From: an uncultured Bacteroidales bacterium
GTDB lineage: Bacteria; Bacteroidota; Bacteroidia; Bacteroidales; Paludibacteraceae
Direction of reading: 5' to 3'
NCBI GenBank assembly: GCA_903830915.1
Contig: CAIKVR010000105.1
Span: 1-35,655 of the forward strand
Length of the DNA: 35,655 bases
In this document: positions 20,141-26,997 of the stretch, one piece after another
Position numbering within the stretch: position 1 is the stretch's first letter
Layout of the letters: every line of letters starts with the position of its first letter
Position numbers and translations under genes: made by a program
Notes under the pieces: generated by a model
What the model was told of the DNA's origin: nothing
Seen by the model: the letters and a program-made list of their open reading frames with translations, nothing else
The model's database searches: none

Positions 20141-21184
20141 TCAGTTTTGGATAACTTTTTCCTTCAAATCAAAAATTTTAATTTTGCTCAAACGTTTATT
20201 TCTACGATCAAACACAAAGAAATCAACCAATAAAAGTACCAGTGCTAAAATAGCAAACGACTGAAATTGTTCGTTATATTCCGAAAAAACGGTTGATTTA
20301 ATGTCCGATTTAGCCATCTTATCCAGTTGTTTAGTAATAATCCGATAAGCACTGTTGCTGTTATCGGCATGTACATACAAACCTTTTCCAGCAATTGCCA
20401 GTTCTTTACACATTTGTTCGTTAAGTTTGGATACTACCACATTACCATCCTTATCTTTCCAAAAACTCATCGTTCCGGGAACCGGAATCGGAGAACCATC
20501 GGGTTTACCCATTCCAATTACATGCACAACAATATCATTTTCGGCAGCCAGTTTGGCAGCACCAACCGCATCGTCTTCATGATTTTCACCATCGGTAATC
20601 ACTATAATGGCACGTCCTACTTTCTCTTTTTGACCAAAAGATTTTATCGACAAATCAATGGCACTTCCTATTGCTGTGCCCTGACGTTGAACCATTTGTG
20701 TAGAAATTGAGGATAAAAACATTTTAGCCGAAACATAATCAGCAGTTATTGGCAGCTGAGTATATGCGTCACCGGCAAATACCACCAACCCTATTTTATC
20801 ATCGTTCATGTCGTCAATCAATTGTGATAAAACAAGTTTGGCTTTCTCAAGTCTGCTGGGCTGAACATCCTGTGCCAGCATGGAGTTGGACACGTCAAGA
20901 GCTATCATCACTTCAATACCTTTTCTCTTCGAATTCTCCACTTTTGTACCGAACTGAGGCTGAGCTAACACAATAACCAAAAGCAAAATAGCAATAAGTT
21001 GCAGGTAGAACTTCACTTTAGGTCTGATAAACGAAACATTGGGCATCAACTGATTTATAATTTCAGGATTTCCAAACTTCTTAATCTTGCGATTTTTTAT
21101 GATGTTGGAATAAATGAATACTCCTGCTAATAAAGGTATAAGCAGTAGTAAAAACAAAAATTCGGGATGAGCAAATCTAAACAT
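20141..21184 (-). CDS. batB: BatB: VWA-domain membrane protein
   Basis: A 347-residue protein with two N-terminal membrane helices (about 9-27 and 58-75), a von Willebrand factor A domain (about 88-300) facing the periplasm, and a C-terminal helix (about 311-326). The metal-ion-dependent adhesion site is canonical: DVSNS at 97-101, plus a downstream Thr (QGTAIGSA) and ITDGENHEDDA. VWA domains bind partner proteins through a metal ion. It is separated from batA by 11 bases and from batC by 13, so the three are probably translated together. In MoxR-VWA systems generally, the ATPase and VWA proteins act together in protein maturation or complex assembly; application to this pair is inference from the family. 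Confidence 0.92.
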   Translation of the reverse strand: MFRFAHPEFLFLLLLIPLLAGVFIYSNIIKNRKIKKFGNPEIINQLMPNVSFIRPKVKFYLQLIAILLLVIVLAQPQFGTKVENSKRKGIEVMIALDVSNSMLAQDVQPSRLEKAKLVLSQLIDDMNDDKIGLVVFAGDAYTQLPITADYVSAKMFLSSISTQMVQRQGTAIGSAIDLSIKSFGQKEKVGRAIIVITDGENHEDDAVGAAKLAAENDIVVHVIGMGKPDGSPIPVPGTMSFWKDKDGNVVVSKLNEQMCKELAIAGKGLYVHADNSNSAYRIITKQLDKMAKSDIKSTVFSEYNEQFQSFAILALVLLLVDFFVFDRRNKRLSKIKIFDLKEKVIQN

Positions 21185-21195
21185 TTCTTCTTTCG

Positions 21196-22179
21196 TTACG
21201 GTATTTTTCTAAAAATAGTATTCCTGAAAAGTATTTCCAAACTCAAAAATATTAATGCCAACAAAGCAAACAAATAGAATTGTTCTTCCTTTTTACTGTA
21301 TTGCTGCACACTTATTTTAGTTTTTTCGAGCTTATCAATATCCTGATAAATTCGACGAAGCTTTGTATTATCGGTTGCGTTATAATACTTACCACCAGTC
21401 ATATTAGCAATCTGTTGCAATGATTTAGAATCAAATTCGGATTGCATTTGCTGGTATTGAACTCCCATGGGAGTAGGTACAGGAATATTTACAATTCCGG
21501 TTGTACCAACACCAATAGTGTAAATTCTAACACCGAAAGTTTTGGCAATTTCAGCTGCTGTTATTGGAGCAATATCACCACAGTTGTTTGAGCCATCAGT
21601 TAAGAGAATTATTATTTTCGATTTAGCTTTACTTTCTTTTATGCGGTTTACGGCATTTGCAAGCCCTAAACCAATGGCAGTACCATCTTCAATCAAGCCA
21701 AATTTCACACCGTTGAATAAATTTATCAAAACAGCATGGTCAATTGTCAAAGGACATTGAGTAAAACTCTCGCGGGCAAAAACCACCAAACCAATGTTAT
21801 CTGTGGGGCGTGAAAGTATAAATTCTGAAGCAACAGCTTTTGCAGCTTCCAGCCGGTTTGGTTTTAAATCTTCAGCCATCATGGTTCCTGACAAATCGAG
21901 TGTCATCATAATGTCAATTCCTTCGGCATTCTGAGTTCTCCAGCTATTCGAAGCCTGTGGACGTGCAAGGGCAATGATTATGCAAACAAGTGCCAATGCT
22001 CTCATTACAAACAAACTGTGTCTGAATTTAATTTTTTTGCTTGACGGAAAATGCAATAAACTCCGGTACGAAGAGATTTGCATACTTGCATCGGATTTCT
22101 GCATTTCCCATATGTACCAAAAGATTACCGGTATAAGCAGCAACAACAAAAACAGGTATTCAGGATTATGAAAAGTCAT
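21196..22179 (-). CDS. batA: BatA: VWA-domain membrane protein
   Basis: A 327-residue VWA protein with the same layout as BatB: membrane helices near 8-22 and 57-74, VWA domain about 86-290, and a C-terminal helix near 300-318. The adhesion-site motif reads DLSGT (95-99), so Thr stands in the last position of the usual DxSxS, while the later elements EDGTAIG and LLTDGSNNCGD are intact. Thr can keep a hydroxyl ligand, so metal binding is probably retained. It pairs with BatB, 11 bases downstream. The BatD-like gene precedes it by 41 bases. Confidence 0.92.
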   Translation of the reverse strand: MTFHNPEYLFLLLLLIPVIFWYIWEMQKSDASMQISSYRSLLHFPSSKKIKFRHSLFVMRALALVCIIIALARPQASNSWRTQNAEGIDIMMTLDLSGTMMAEDLKPNRLEAAKAVASEFILSRPTDNIGLVVFARESFTQCPLTIDHAVLINLFNGVKFGLIEDGTAIGLGLANAVNRIKESKAKSKIIILLTDGSNNCGDIAPITAAEIAKTFGVRIYTIGVGTTGIVNIPVPTPMGVQYQQMQSEFDSKSLQQIANMTGGKYYNATDNTKLRRIYQDIDKLEKTKISVQQYSKKEEQFYLFALLALIFLSLEILFRNTIFRKIP

Positions 22180-22220
22180 CTTAATTTTTAATTTAGAACT
22201 GAAATTTATTGTCAGCTTGA

Positions 22221-23192
22221 TTAAACTTCAGTTGTTTCCTCTTTTTTTAATTCATCAATTGGTTTTACCTCTTCTATTTTTGTCTGATTTACAAACAAAT
22301 AGGCATTTATCAGACTTAATTCGTGTTCATCGGGTGCAGCATTCCATTTGGCAAACTTCACTAAATCAGCAAGTTTAAGAATTTGTTGCAGGCTCTGATA
22401 AGTCGATTTCTGATCCATACGCAGCGAACGTAAATGATCCATAATTTCTTCAGAAGTCATTTCCATGCCATTAATATTGAAAATACGTTCAATATATTCT
22501 CTTAACACGTCGGTCAATTCGGTATGATATTCTTTCGACCGACCTTGTTGCCAGAGTTTTTCCTGTTTGATTTTATCAAGTTGGTTCAATGCTACCACAT
22601 GAGCAGGCTGTAACAATTTGATTTGGTCCTCTGTTAATACAGGTTTCTTTTTGAAGAATCGTTGGAATAGATAAATCAAAGCACCTATTAATATCAGGAT
22701 AACCAGAATCAAAAGAACTGTTTTCAAAAAATCACGCCAGTCGAAACGCATGTCATATACAGGTTTGATATCAGCTATTTTTTTTGATGCAGTATCAATT
22801 TTAAATGGTTGAACAACCTTTAACGATAATGATTTTGACCAAATTGTATCTCCGTTCAACACGAAAGGAAAAGCCGGAATATATAAAAGTGAATCTTTAA
22901 AAGCAGTTACCAGATAATGTTGACTTACAACCAAATGTCCATCGGGCGATTTTGAAGTATCCATTTTTCCAGGTTCAACAAGTTCAAGTCCACCGGGAAT
23001 AGAATCTGTAAAAATCGGCATTATGACCTTCTGATTAGGTTGTTGTGAAACCTCATAAGTCAAATGTGCTTGATTTCCAATCCATATCATGGTAGAATCA
23101 ATCTTTGCATTGACAGTTATTTTTTGAGCAAATAAGCTAATACTTGCAAATGAAGTTATTGAAAAAATCAAAAGCAATACAGTTTTTCTCAT
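22221..23192 (-). CDS. BatD-like membrane protein of the bat operon (unnamed)
   Basis: A 323-residue protein that sits between the DUF58 gene and batA, where many MoxR-VWA operons carry a DUF4381-like or uncharacterised membrane protein. It has a signal peptide (about 1-22), a periplasmic beta-rich domain (about 24-145, including AHLTYEVSQQPNQKVIMPIF and YIPAFPFVLNGDTIW), one strong membrane helix (about 156-175, VLLILVILILIGALIYLFQR), and a cytoplasmic helical domain (about 190-305) with ELTDVLREYIERIFNINGME. The layout is that of a short BatD. It may link the cytoplasmic MoxR/DUF58 pair to the periplasmic VWA proteins, which is inference from position and topology. The acidic C-terminal tail (EEVKPIDELKKEETTEV) is unremarkable. 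Confidence 0.75.
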   Translation of the reverse strand: MRKTVLLLIFSITSFASISLFAQKITVNAKIDSTMIWIGNQAHLTYEVSQQPNQKVIMPIFTDSIPGGLELVEPGKMDTSKSPDGHLVVSQHYLVTAFKDSLLYIPAFPFVLNGDTIWSKSLSLKVVQPFKIDTASKKIADIKPVYDMRFDWRDFLKTVLLILVILILIGALIYLFQRFFKKKPVLTEDQIKLLQPAHVVALNQLDKIKQEKLWQQGRSKEYHTELTDVLREYIERIFNINGMEMTSEEIMDHLRSLRMDQKSTYQSLQQILKLADLVKFAKWNAAPDEHELSLINAYLFVNQTKIEEVKPIDELKKEETTEV

Positions 23193-23248
23193 ACAATCAA
23201 ATTCATCTTTAGCAATTGTAAATTGTAAATCTTGAAATAGTAAATTAA
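23193..23248. repeat. AT-rich word repeat in the spacer after the DUF58 gene
   Basis: Tandem TTGTAAATTGTAAAT around 23215-23229 with further GTAAATT words nearby, of the same class as the batC-batD spacer. No gene or clear hairpin is seen. Confidence 0.55.
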
Positions 23249-24115
23249 TCAGGCTCTCATTTTGAATAATTTCATCAAAGCACGGACATAATCTTCGGAA
23301 GTACTCATCGAAACCATTTCAACACCCGATTTTGTGAAGGTTTTCTGGAGTTCAAGTTGATTTTGACCCCAGGCATGTTTATAACTTATTCTCAAACGTT
23401 TATCAGAAGTATCTACCCAAATTCGCTCGCCGGATTCAGCATCTTTCAATTTTATCAAACCAACATCAGGCAATTCTGTTTCGCGAATATCGTAAACCTG
23501 CAAAGCTACCAAATCGTGTTTACGAGCAACAATATTCAGTTCTTTATCGAAATTCTTGTCAATCATATCCGAAATTAAGAATGCTGTAGAACTTTTTTTG
23601 ATGGCGTTTGTCAGATAGCGTAATGCTCCGCCAATATCCGTTTGTTTGCTTTCAGGCTGAAAATCAATCAATTCACGAATAATATGTAAAACGTGCTTCT
23701 TTCCTTTTTTGGGTGGAATGAATTTTTCAATTTTATCCGAAAAGAAAATAACACCAATTTTATCGTTATTCTGAATGGTTGAAAATGCAAGCGTGGCTGC
23801 CACTTCGGTGAAAATATCCTTTTTAAGTTGCGACACAGTTCCGAATTCACGACTGCCCGAAACGTCAATCAGCAAAACCACCGTCAGTTCACGTTCTTCT
23901 TCAAAAACCTTTATATAAGGATGTCCGAAACGCGCTGTCACGTTCCAGTCGATGGAACGTATATCGTCGCCATACTGATACTCACGCACTTCGGCAAAAG
24001 TCATACCACGTCCCTTGAACGCTGAATGATACTCACCTGCGAAAATATTCTTCGACAACCCGCGGGTTTTGATTTCTATTTTCCTTACTTTCTGTATTAA
24101 TTCGCTGGTTTCCAC
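23249..24115 (-). CDS. DUF58-domain protein (VWA-like)
   Basis: A 288-residue soluble protein with the DUF58 signature: GRGMTFAEVREYQYGDDIRS followed by IDWNVTARFGHPY (about 36-67). A VWA-like fold follows, with DVSGS at 84-88 and a later SDMID block. There are no membrane segments, unlike longer DUF58 proteins with N-terminal helices. It lies 47 bases after moxR, the near-universal pairing for this family, and probably acts as the cytoplasmic partner or adaptor of that ATPase. The C-terminus (VRALMKLFKMRA) is basic. Function beyond the pairing is not established. Confidence 0.92.
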   Translation of the reverse strand: METSELIQKVRKIEIKTRGLSKNIFAGEYHSAFKGRGMTFAEVREYQYGDDIRSIDWNVTARFGHPYIKVFEEERELTVVLLIDVSGSREFGTVSQLKKDIFTEVAATLAFSTIQNNDKIGVIFFSDKIEKFIPPKKGKKHVLHIIRELIDFQPESKQTDIGGALRYLTNAIKKSSTAFLISDMIDKNFDKELNIVARKHDLVALQVYDIRETELPDVGLIKLKDAESGERIWVDTSDKRLRISYKHAWGQNQLELQKTFTKSGVEMVSMSTSEDYVRALMKLFKMRA

Positions 24116-24162
24116 AAATTCAATATATAATTATTAATTATGAATTCTTAATTATTAATTGA
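24116..24162. repeat. AT-rich palindromic words between moxR and the DUF58 gene
   Basis: AATTATTAATT occurs twice (24130-24140 and 24150-24160), around TATGAATTCTT. The spacer can fold on itself but lacks a GC stem, so it is not a convincing terminator. The flanking genes are likely still co-transcribed. Confidence 0.55.
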
Positions 24163-25158
24163 TTAAGGTACTTCAACTGTATTTAGAATTTCAGTGATTA
24201 TTTCGTCCGAAGTCATGTTGTTGGCCTCAGCTTCATAGCTCAAACCAATACGGTGACGCAATACATCGTAACATACTGCACGAACATCTTCCGGAATAAC
24301 ATAACCACGACGTTTGATAAAAGCATAGGCACGTGAAGCTAGTGCAAGGTTGATAGAAGCACGAGGTGAAGCACCAAACGAAATCATTTCTTTCAGTGAA
24401 TCCAGCCCGTAATCCTGCGGGAAACGTGTAGCAAAAACAATATCAACAATATAGCGTTCAATTTTTTCGTCAATATAAACCAAACGAACAACATCGCGAG
24501 CTTCAACAATATCTTTTGGGGTAAGAACTGGTAATACCACCGGTTTTTCTTTCAGTAAATTTTGACGGATAATCAATTTTTCCTCTTCTTTTTTCGGATA
24601 ATTGATAATCACTTTCAGCATAAAACGGTCAACCTGAGCTTCGGGTAACGGATAGGTTCCTTCTTGTTCAATTGGGTTCTGAGTAGCCATAACCAAAAAC
24701 GGTTCATCCAATTTGTAGGTATTTTCTCCAATAGTCACCTGACGTTCCTGCATAGCTTCAAGTAAAGCACTTTGAACTTTTGCCGGAGCACGGTTAATTT
24801 CATCAGCTAAAACCAAATTTGCAAAAATAGGTCCTTTTTTAATGCTGAACTCTTCTTTTTTCTGACTGTAAATCATTGTTCCGATTACATCAGCAGGCAA
24901 TAAATCAGGTGTAAACTGAATTCGGCTGAAATCACCTTTAATCAAATCGGACAAGGTTTTAATAGCTAATGTTTTAGCTAAACCAGGTACCCCTTCAAGA
25001 AGTATATGTCCATCAGACAATAATCCAATTAACAAAGACTCTACAAGGTGTTTTTGACCTATAATTACTTTGTCCATTCCCATGGTTAGCGCATCAACAA
25101 ACGAACTTTGTTTTTCGATGCGTTCGTTAAGTTCCCTAATATCAACAGATTGAATCAT
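24163..25158 (-). CDS. MoxR-family AAA+ ATPase
   Basis: A 331-residue cytoplasmic ATPase of the MoxR group (AAA_3 plus lid domain). The Walker A motif is GVPGLAKT at 56-63, Walker B is NLVLADE at 114-120 followed by INRAPAKVQSALLEAMQER, and sensor 1 is MATQNPIEQEGTYPLPEAQ. The C-terminal lid is at about 245-325. MoxR proteins act as chaperone-like motors with VWA-domain partners; here the partners would be DUF58, BatA and BatB encoded downstream. It is the first gene of the bat operon, with a TANNTTTG-type box 37 bases upstream of the ATG. Motor residues all look intact. Confidence 0.95.
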   Translation of the reverse strand: MIQSVDIRELNERIEKQSSFVDALTMGMDKVIIGQKHLVESLLIGLLSDGHILLEGVPGLAKTLAIKTLSDLIKGDFSRIQFTPDLLPADVIGTMIYSQKKEEFSIKKGPIFANLVLADEINRAPAKVQSALLEAMQERQVTIGENTYKLDEPFLVMATQNPIEQEGTYPLPEAQVDRFMLKVIINYPKKEEEKLIIRQNLLKEKPVVLPVLTPKDIVEARDVVRLVYIDEKIERYIVDIVFATRFPQDYGLDSLKEMISFGASPRASINLALASRAYAFIKRRGYVIPEDVRAVCYDVLRHRIGLSYEAEANNMTSDEIITEILNTVEVP

Positions 25159-25202: not shown

Positions 25203-25316
25203 GTGTTATTCTAAACTGCTAACTACTTGATTTAATATCTATTAACCTGAATTTAGATTATTATGGAATGGAGGTTCATTAATGAAAAAAACAACTGCTT
25301 TTTTAATTATTTTGAA

Positions 25317-25357
25317 TTAAAAAAGTTCTGCAATTTGTGAAAATTTACAGAACTTCT
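25317..25357 (-). terminator. Terminator after the HU-LysM gene
   Basis: On the minus strand AAGTTCTG pairs with CAGAACTT through a longer, partly mismatched stem, and a run of six T follows. It lies 35 bases past the HU-LysM stop and ends the ftsY-rimO-HU unit. Confidence 0.75.
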
Positions 25358-25391
25358 TTAAAAATTTAATTCAGGACCTATATTTGAGTTG

Positions 25392-26714
25392 TTATTCCTC
25401 TTTCTGAATTTTCTTTACATACAAATCATGCAATTCCTTTGCTTTATCAATACAACGCTGATTTTCTTTATCAATCAATCGTGAATCAAGTTTGGGGATA
25501 TAAATAATAGTACCTGAAGGAATTTTATTTGGATCGGAAACTTTTTCACGGTTTGCTTCGTAAATATACACCCAAAAATCTTTCAATCCATAATATTTTT
25601 TGGCTAAATTGGTCAACCGACTTCCTGAATGGGTGGTTTCAGTCGCAATTATTTCGGTGTAATTTCGCGGACTATCAAACAACAATTGCAAACTATCAAC
25701 TGGTGGAATGTCTTCCTCTTCAATTGTATCCACAGCTGAAGTATCTTTAGGAATTACCACTGTTACAGGCACATCCAGTTTCTTTGGTTTGGCAACAAAC
25801 AATTGTGATACTGATTTGGTCAAATCAGTAGTTGAATTTGACACATTATTACCAAAAGATATTATCATTCTCTTTGCCGGAGGATAAAGATAAAATATAC
25901 TTGTACCAGCTCCTAACAGTACTATTATGCAGATTATTAAAACCAACCAACCTGTTTTTTTCTTATTCTTACGTGGTACGAAAGTTGGAACAAAAGTTTC
26001 TTCTGTATTTAATTCTTCAACTGTTTCTTCAATAACTATAACGGGAATTTCGACATGTTCTTCTTTTTGCTCTTCAACTACGGATTTTGGAGAAAAAACT
26101 TCTGATTTTGGTTCTTCTTTTATCTCAACTTCTTCAACTTGAAATTCATAATCAGGAATCTGAATTTTTTCTTCATGCACTTGATGCGGAATTTCTTCTG
26201 ATGTTTCGTTGATATTTTCCACAACAACTTCCTGAATATCATTCTGTAATTCAGCAGTTTGATGATTCGACTGCAAATTCATTATTTCAGCCAAAATATC
26301 TTTTATTTCACTTGCCTGTTCGTTCAGTGTTCTGAGCGGATCCATTGTTTCAGTTTCCTTTTGTATAGGCTCTATCTGCACAGGAGTATCTCTACCAATC
26401 TGTACAGCTTCCAAATGACCAAAAGGTTCATTAATTAAATCCCGTAAATTGTTATCAGGCGTAAAGTTAACCTTATAGTAACCTGCCAAAATAATATCTT
26501 CACCTGTCTGTACATTTACACTTTTTCGTGGTTCGTTCCAATGTAGTTTAAACGTACCAAAGTTTTTAATTTTCACTGAATCACCCGACATTAAAGCTTC
26601 CTCGATGGTGCTAATCATCACTTTCAGAAATTCTTCTGAAGCTCGTTTGCTTACCGATGCTTTTAAGGCAACGATATCAATAATCTCCTGCGATGAAAGT
26701 TTTTCCTTACTCAT
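25392..26714 (-). CDS. HU-transmembrane-LysM fusion protein
   Basis: A 440-residue protein combining parts that normally lie in different compartments. Residues 1-93 are an HU/IHF-type DNA-binding domain (MSKEKLSSQEIIDIVALKAS, VKIKNFGTFKLHWNEPRKSV, VNFTPDNNLRDLIN). Residues 100-245 are an acidic, Glu-rich linker. RKNKKK (248-253) precedes a single membrane helix at 255-277 (GWLVLIICIIVLLGAG). A Thr/Ser-rich stretch follows, then a LysM-like domain at about 355-409 (LTNLAKKYYGLKDFWVYIYE, IPSGTIIYIPKL). The basic flank predicts N-terminus inside and C-terminus in the periplasm, so one molecule could hold DNA and peptidoglycan at once. It overlaps the upstream HU gene by eight bases. Domain calls are firm; tethering is inference. 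Regulation of the linker or cleavage cannot be judged. Confidence 0.85.
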   Translation of the reverse strand: MSKEKLSSQEIIDIVALKASVSKRASEEFLKVMISTIEEALMSGDSVKIKNFGTFKLHWNEPRKSVNVQTGEDIILAGYYKVNFTPDNNLRDLINEPFGHLEAVQIGRDTPVQIEPIQKETETMDPLRTLNEQASEIKDILAEIMNLQSNHQTAELQNDIQEVVVENINETSEEIPHQVHEEKIQIPDYEFQVEEVEIKEEPKSEVFSPKSVVEEQKEEHVEIPVIVIEETVEELNTEETFVPTFVPRKNKKKTGWLVLIICIIVLLGAGTSIFYLYPPAKRMIISFGNNVSNSTTDLTKSVSQLFVAKPKKLDVPVTVVIPKDTSAVDTIEEEDIPPVDSLQLLFDSPRNYTEIIATETTHSGSRLTNLAKKYYGLKDFWVYIYEANREKVSDPNKIPSGTIIYIPKLDSRLIDKENQRCIDKAKELHDLYVKKIQKEE

Positions 26715-26997
26715 TGTGTGGCAGTTCTTTAAGTTTATCTTTCAGAATATTGCTTTGTTTGAAATTCACAACTAATTTTGGGGGAACAAGTGTTCGGATT
26801 TGAGTGGCAGGATGAACCGATAGCCGTTCTTCCTTTTTACGCACTTCAAAATTTCCAAAACTCTGAAAACCAATAGTTTTACCTTCCACCAGCAATTCAT
26901 TGCAGGTAGAAACCGTTTTCTCCAGTAAATCCTCCACGAGCGATTTCGGGGCATTCATCTTGGCTGCCATTGCGGCAATTAATTCTTTGTGATTCAT
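26707..26997 (-). CDS. HU/IHF-family DNA-binding protein
   Basis: A 96-residue DNA-binding protein of the HU/IHF family, with the usual length (about 90-100) and pattern: MNHKELIAAMAAKMNAPKSL with dimer helices, TIGFQSFGNFEVRKKEERLS, then the arm region HPATQIRTLVPPKLVVNFKQ and a C-terminal helix. HU proteins bend DNA and compact the nucleoid. The arm has a Pro-Pro before KLVVNF, where standard HU has other residues, so its DNA contacts may differ. Its stop overlaps the start of the HU-LysM gene (ATGAGTAA), which suggests translational coupling and possible heterodimers. It is 108 bases downstream of rimO across a repeat-filled spacer. Confidence 0.88.
   Translation of the reverse strand: MNHKELIAAMAAKMNAPKSLVEDLLEKTVSTCNELLVEGKTIGFQSFGNFEVRKKEERLSVHPATQIRTLVPPKLVVNFKQSNILKDKLKELPHNE

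Follow-up and report, generated by a model that had tools for sequence, protein, structure and literature searches.

A small HU protein paired with an HU-transmembrane-LysM protein in Bacteroidota: a candidate nucleoid-to-envelope anchor

The window (the whole stretch of DNA analysed here, 35,655 nucleotides from an uncultured Bacteroidales bacterium) encodes, in a single open reading frame, a 440-residue protein that carries an HU domain, an acidic linker, one membrane helix and a LysM-like domain, which confirms the layout given in the preliminary description. The gene of a small HU protein lies directly upstream, and its end shares 8 nt with the beginning of the large gene. This gene-pair layout is real and widely conserved, and a tether of the chromosome to the cell wall built on it is plausible, if unproven. 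The parts of the pair are as follows.

25392..26714, minus strand: HU-TM-LysM protein, 440 aa, single open reading frame
26424..26699, minus strand: HU domain, aa 6-97, by profile match and predicted fold
26478..26540, minus strand: beta-arm of the HU domain, aa 59-79, with Val68 at the intercalating-proline site
25974..26423, minus strand: acidic linker, aa 98-247, 38 D/E versus 9 K/R
26268..26339, minus strand: predicted helix inside the linker, aa 126-149
25950..25973, minus strand: basic cluster RKNKKKTG, aa 248-255, on the cytoplasmic side by prediction
25881..25949, minus strand: transmembrane helix, aa 256-278, basic side towards HU
25653..25880, minus strand: predicted periplasmic spacer, aa 279-354
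25485..25652, minus strand: LysM fold, aa 355-410, by structure prediction
25398..25460, minus strand: C-terminal helix, aa 419-439
26707..26997, minus strand: small HU, 96 aa, proposed heterodimer partner
25315..25372, minus strand: terminator-like hairpin with a T run, z -5.55, immediately after the stop of the large gene

The large protein belongs to the HU/IHF superfamily (PF00216) both by profile and by predicted fold. The helix inside its linker has the family consensus PLxxxxEQAxEIKxxLxxI, the rest of the linker being predicted with low confidence, and is a possible partner-binding site. The hairpin after the stop, absent from the list of a consensus terminator scan, separates the HU pair from MoxR.

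A scan of genome contigs with six patterns gave 48 loci, 47 of which (the first set) have a relative of the large protein, the remaining one (L055) being a plain HU. HU and LysM lie within one open reading frame in 46 of these 47 loci; L035 has no HU part, and that of L017 is incomplete at the contig end. Since dozens of genomes show the identical architecture, we can rule out that the fusion was created by a frameshift or an assembly join, which the preliminary description had named as a refutation. The profile search covered 247 genomes of the order Bacteroidales, and the 53 matching regions fetched from it yielded 40 intact pairs and seven fused forms in 47 other genomes. With the window's own genome included, the unit is present in at least 48 of the 247 genomes (in seven of them fused), a lower bound because the remaining weak profile matches were left unfetched. 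From a phylum-wide draw of 392 genomes, seven matches outside the order were fetched: six carry the pair, all of them in one family of another class, and L151 is without it; further matches in the phylum, some in long frames, exist beyond those fetched. The architecture is therefore found both in the order and in another class, which answers the suggestion to look for it across Bacteroidota. The peptide KDFWVYIY, taken at one stage for an invariant of the LysM part, was dropped as a hallmark, because the scan had itself used this peptide among its six patterns; 3 of 47 profile-found proteins have it exactly. Several unusual relatives were met as well: in L142 HU and LysM are split between two frames that overlap, owing either to disruption of the copy or to an assembly error, L016 and L054 have, by reading, two and three LysM-like repeats, respectively, and a second-copy protein in L136 (1939-3825) has two halves that are weakly HU-like and also contains a long repeat rich in Glu and Lys, a hydrophobic helix and LysM.

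In the counts given below, proteins met twice (L094 = L031, L096 = L033) are represented once in the distinct sets (91 pairs, 89 for the proline site, 90 for topology) and are still included in the tree, charge and Fisher counts. Left out are L017 and L035 (no small HU found), L055, L142 (its frames being split) and the second-copy proteins L098, L103, L136 and L140; L040 and L044 are left out of the HU tree and the proline counts, and L040 also of topology. L141, a second copy in G509, is part of the pair counts and excluded from the genome count.

The tether had been pictured as a lone protein co-encoded with a small HU. Co-encoding proved to be the rule, the small HU adjoining the large gene in 45 of the 47 first-set loci. 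As for the lone protein, the fusion itself stands, but the acting unit is to be sought in a pair of HU proteins: the two genes overlap by 4, 8 or 11 nt in 69 of the 91 distinct pairs, including that of the window, the others being separated by 0-20 nt (21 pairs) or 96 nt (one pair), and seven proteins are natural HU-HU fusions (L121, L130, L131, L133, L134, L135, L139). All seven have the order small-type HU, large-type HU, hydrophobic helix, LysM, and in all seven the first half scores better with the small-type profile and the second half with the large-type one, at low scores in L121, L131 and L135. They span four families (f135, f84, f73 and f2); in f73 and f2 other genera have separate genes (L115, L126; L137, L138). 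In a tree built from 91 HUs of each type, duplicates included, the small and the large ones form two clades with zero misplacement, the support of the split being 0.96 with the genome's two ordinary HUs, which fall on the small side, and 0.85 without them. This error-free separation indicates that the split into small and large HUs predates the spread of the pair. Since HU and IHF work as dimers, the small and the large HU may be read as a membrane-held, IHF-like heterodimer, a reading to which the gene overlap and the natural fusions lend indirect support.

Contact of such a pair with DNA looks asymmetric, judging from the arms. The site that holds the intercalating proline in HU and IHF structures is occupied by Pro in 82 of 89 small HUs; of the 89 large ones, 9 have Pro there, 70 have Val or Ile, 2 have another residue and 8 lack the site by deletion. 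The window has Pro in the small HU and Val68 in the large one. The proline is common in the HU/IHF superfamily, not universal: L002, an ordinary stand-alone HU of the same genome (G000:C238), has Ile at this position, so that proline loss alone does not exclude DNA binding. The missing proline counts against classical two-proline kinking and not against the HU fold family. The large HUs that possess it are nine diverged relatives (L143-L150 and L152, e.g. RNPQTG in L152), and its loss in the main clade of large HUs takes one change by parsimony on the tree; these two observations suggest that the ancestor of the membrane-bound HUs probably resembled an ordinary DNA binder. Net charge over the domain is +5 in the small HU of the window and about -2 in the large one, and the arm of the small HU is basic (median +4 over 91, duplicates included; +3 and +6 in the genome's ordinary HUs). 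The earlier concern that the large HU might lack DNA-contact residues is thus borne out in part: the window's large HU is without the proline and slightly acidic, and some of its relatives are without the arm; the arm of the window protein and the proline of its partner are kept.

The eight arm deletions, two events by parsimony, weigh against obligatory DNA kinking, which seems doubtful where the large arm and the small proline are both gone, as in six of these eight members. The structure model of one armless large HU, L045, still gives an HU body (mean pLDDT 81.5), and the arms of several fusions look altered or shortened, as judged by eye and left unscored. The joint loss of large arm and small proline (Fisher p 2.9e-7, duplicates included and descent ignored) was considered as proof of dimerisation and set aside as weak, since the tree reduces it to two deletions of the arm and three losses of the proline, among the latter L141, which is an alignment gap.

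Regarding topology, in 72 of 90 distinct large proteins the 12 residues flanking the membrane helix towards HU contain more K/R than those towards LysM, in 13 equally many and in 5 fewer (4, 1 and 2, respectively, in the seven fusions, a mixed picture), a charge pattern that agrees with the earlier proposal of the two ends lying on opposite sides of the membrane. The linker varies from about 34 to 452 residues across the family; that of the window, 150 aa long, would span no more than about 54 nm in full extension (0.36 nm per residue).

The LysM part of the window protein has its fold by structure prediction; the Pfam model PF01476 (LysM) gives no match in the C-terminus of this protein (0 families), and of 29 family members it matches 5 with E up to 0.01, the matches in L152 and L139 being below the family cut-off. 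Its best solved relative, by profile and by fold, is Kbp (YgaU), which differs from the window protein as a soluble BON-LysM potassium-binding protein. Three OmpA-type outer-membrane proteins end in the same LysM subfamily, which fits a periplasmic location: L098, in which Pfam finds PF00691 and a barrel domain, and L103 and L140, which were assigned by reading. The genomes of these three carry the HU version too. On the basis of predicted fold and topology, the LysM part may bind peptidoglycan.

Among neighbouring genes, MoxR adjoins the pair in 39 of the 47 loci, RimO in 22 and FtsY in 21; some of these contigs are too short for a neighbour call, and others show neither FtsY nor RimO over about 6 kb upstream (e.g. 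L032-L034). In the six loci of another class, the fetched stretches of about 5 kb also lack FtsY, and the flanking genes of the pair differ. The link with the SRP receptor (FtsY) that the preliminary description had drawn can therefore be dropped as a general feature. In the window, the HU pair is followed by a MoxR/Bat-type gene cluster (20141-25158); we know of no functional link between the two.

Among known systems, the closest are the HU-CCDC81_bac-TM-SPOR proteins of Bacteroidota (PF18174, PF18175, PF05036), which likewise combine HU-superfamily domains, a hydrophobic helix (by reading) and a peptidoglycan-binding-type domain. Burroughs and colleagues reportedly proposed a chromosome-partition role for this clade in 2017. 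PF18175, counted alone, matches 219 of the order's 247 genomes with E up to 1e-5, in 195 of them above the cut-off, and the window's own genome encodes an HU-CCDC81_bac_1/2 protein with SPOR, L058. These proteins differ in having two divergent HU domains per chain and SPOR in place of LysM, and the window protein matches neither PF18174, PF18175 nor SPOR at E up to 0.1. HubP/FimV share with it a periplasmic LysM, one membrane helix and a large acidic cytoplasmic stretch. HubP of V. cholerae sets the position of the chromosome 1 origin via ParA1 and needs its LysM for the pole (PMC8789113), and FimV of P. putida binds sacculi through its LysM (PMC12918733). However, LysM is N-terminal in HubP/FimV, a FimV/TPR domain is C-terminal, HU is absent and DNA is reached through ParA1, whereas in the window protein LysM is C-terminal and HU N-terminal, with no FimV or TPR family in its Pfam list. 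It is thus a member of neither family, HubP being the nearest characterised case by function. As to the HU pair, two divergent HU-fold subunits are also found in IHF alpha/beta and in single-chain scIHF2 (2iie, the top PDB match by sequence, E 6.5e-17), which the natural HU-HU fusions resemble; these proteins are soluble, whereas here one subunit is membrane-anchored and without the intercalating proline. A search of titles and abstract openings in a limited collection found no paper on an HU-LysM fusion, nor did the searched passages of PMC10434189, PMC13114119 and PMC5771137 hold anything on it, and our literature searches found no experiment on any family member.

Starting from what the sequences show (the fusion, its pairing with a small HU, the division of the HUs into two paralogous clades, the predicted folds and the topology signal), we propose that the two translationally coupled HU proteins would form an IHF-like heterodimer on the cytoplasmic side of the inner membrane, with the large subunit as its anchor, leading from HU via the flexible acidic linker, the membrane helix and the periplasmic spacer to LysM on peptidoglycan. 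The small subunit would provide an arm with the intercalating proline and the large one an altered arm, so that DNA would be gripped and bent asymmetrically by a pair that is fixed to membrane and wall and might serve in holding or partitioning the nucleoid, as an anchor similar to HubP in its working but contacting DNA itself. We give this full mechanism an even chance, the topology and the pairing being likelier than the whole; that both DNA and wall are bound in all lineages is less likely. The same parts could also make up a protein scaffold, the HU pair binding a cytoplasmic protein instead of DNA and linking this partner to the wall. RodZ holds MreB by means of a DNA-binding fold, and a protein-binding role has been proposed for the HU domains of eukaryotic CCDC81; the lack of the proline in 80 and of the arm in 8 of the 89 large HUs, the HU body that the model of armless L045 retains, the net charge of -2 in the window's large HU and the conserved helix in the linker are all in line with such a role. 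Yet the small HU retains its proline and basic arm, and the nine diverged large HUs have proline arms, and we regard the scaffold as unlikely.

The part order (a DNA-binding-type domain, a membrane helix, a periplasmic domain) and the presence of MoxR beside most of the pairs would also suit a transmembrane regulator, whose LysM would sense the state of the wall and whose HU pair would alter DNA structure at promoters. However, one-component regulators of the ToxR/CadC type act through a winged helix, and HU is no such sequence-reading fold; moreover, linkers of such variable length are odd for signal transfer, and the change of flanking genes in another class also speaks against this function, which we hold to be improbable. 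We consider it very improbable that the LysM part binds something besides peptidoglycan, leaving a membrane-anchored HU with no link to the wall: the relationship to Kbp and the failure of PF01476 to find the LysM part of the window would agree with this, but the topology places LysM on the periplasmic side, its subfamily ends OmpA-type proteins, and the Pfam model does reach L152 and L139, albeit below cut-off.

Returning to the HU-heterodimer anchor, we see somewhat less than an even chance that a heterodimer with one subunit bolted to peptidoglycan fixes the nucleoid in more than one class, beside an independent HU-SPOR anchor in the same cells. That one genome holds both the LysM and the SPOR version suggests that HU bound to the envelope is a theme in the phylum Bacteroidota. 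A two-gene unit that combines DNA-binding-type and wall-type domains makes the attachment of the nucleoid to the envelope in this phylum testable.
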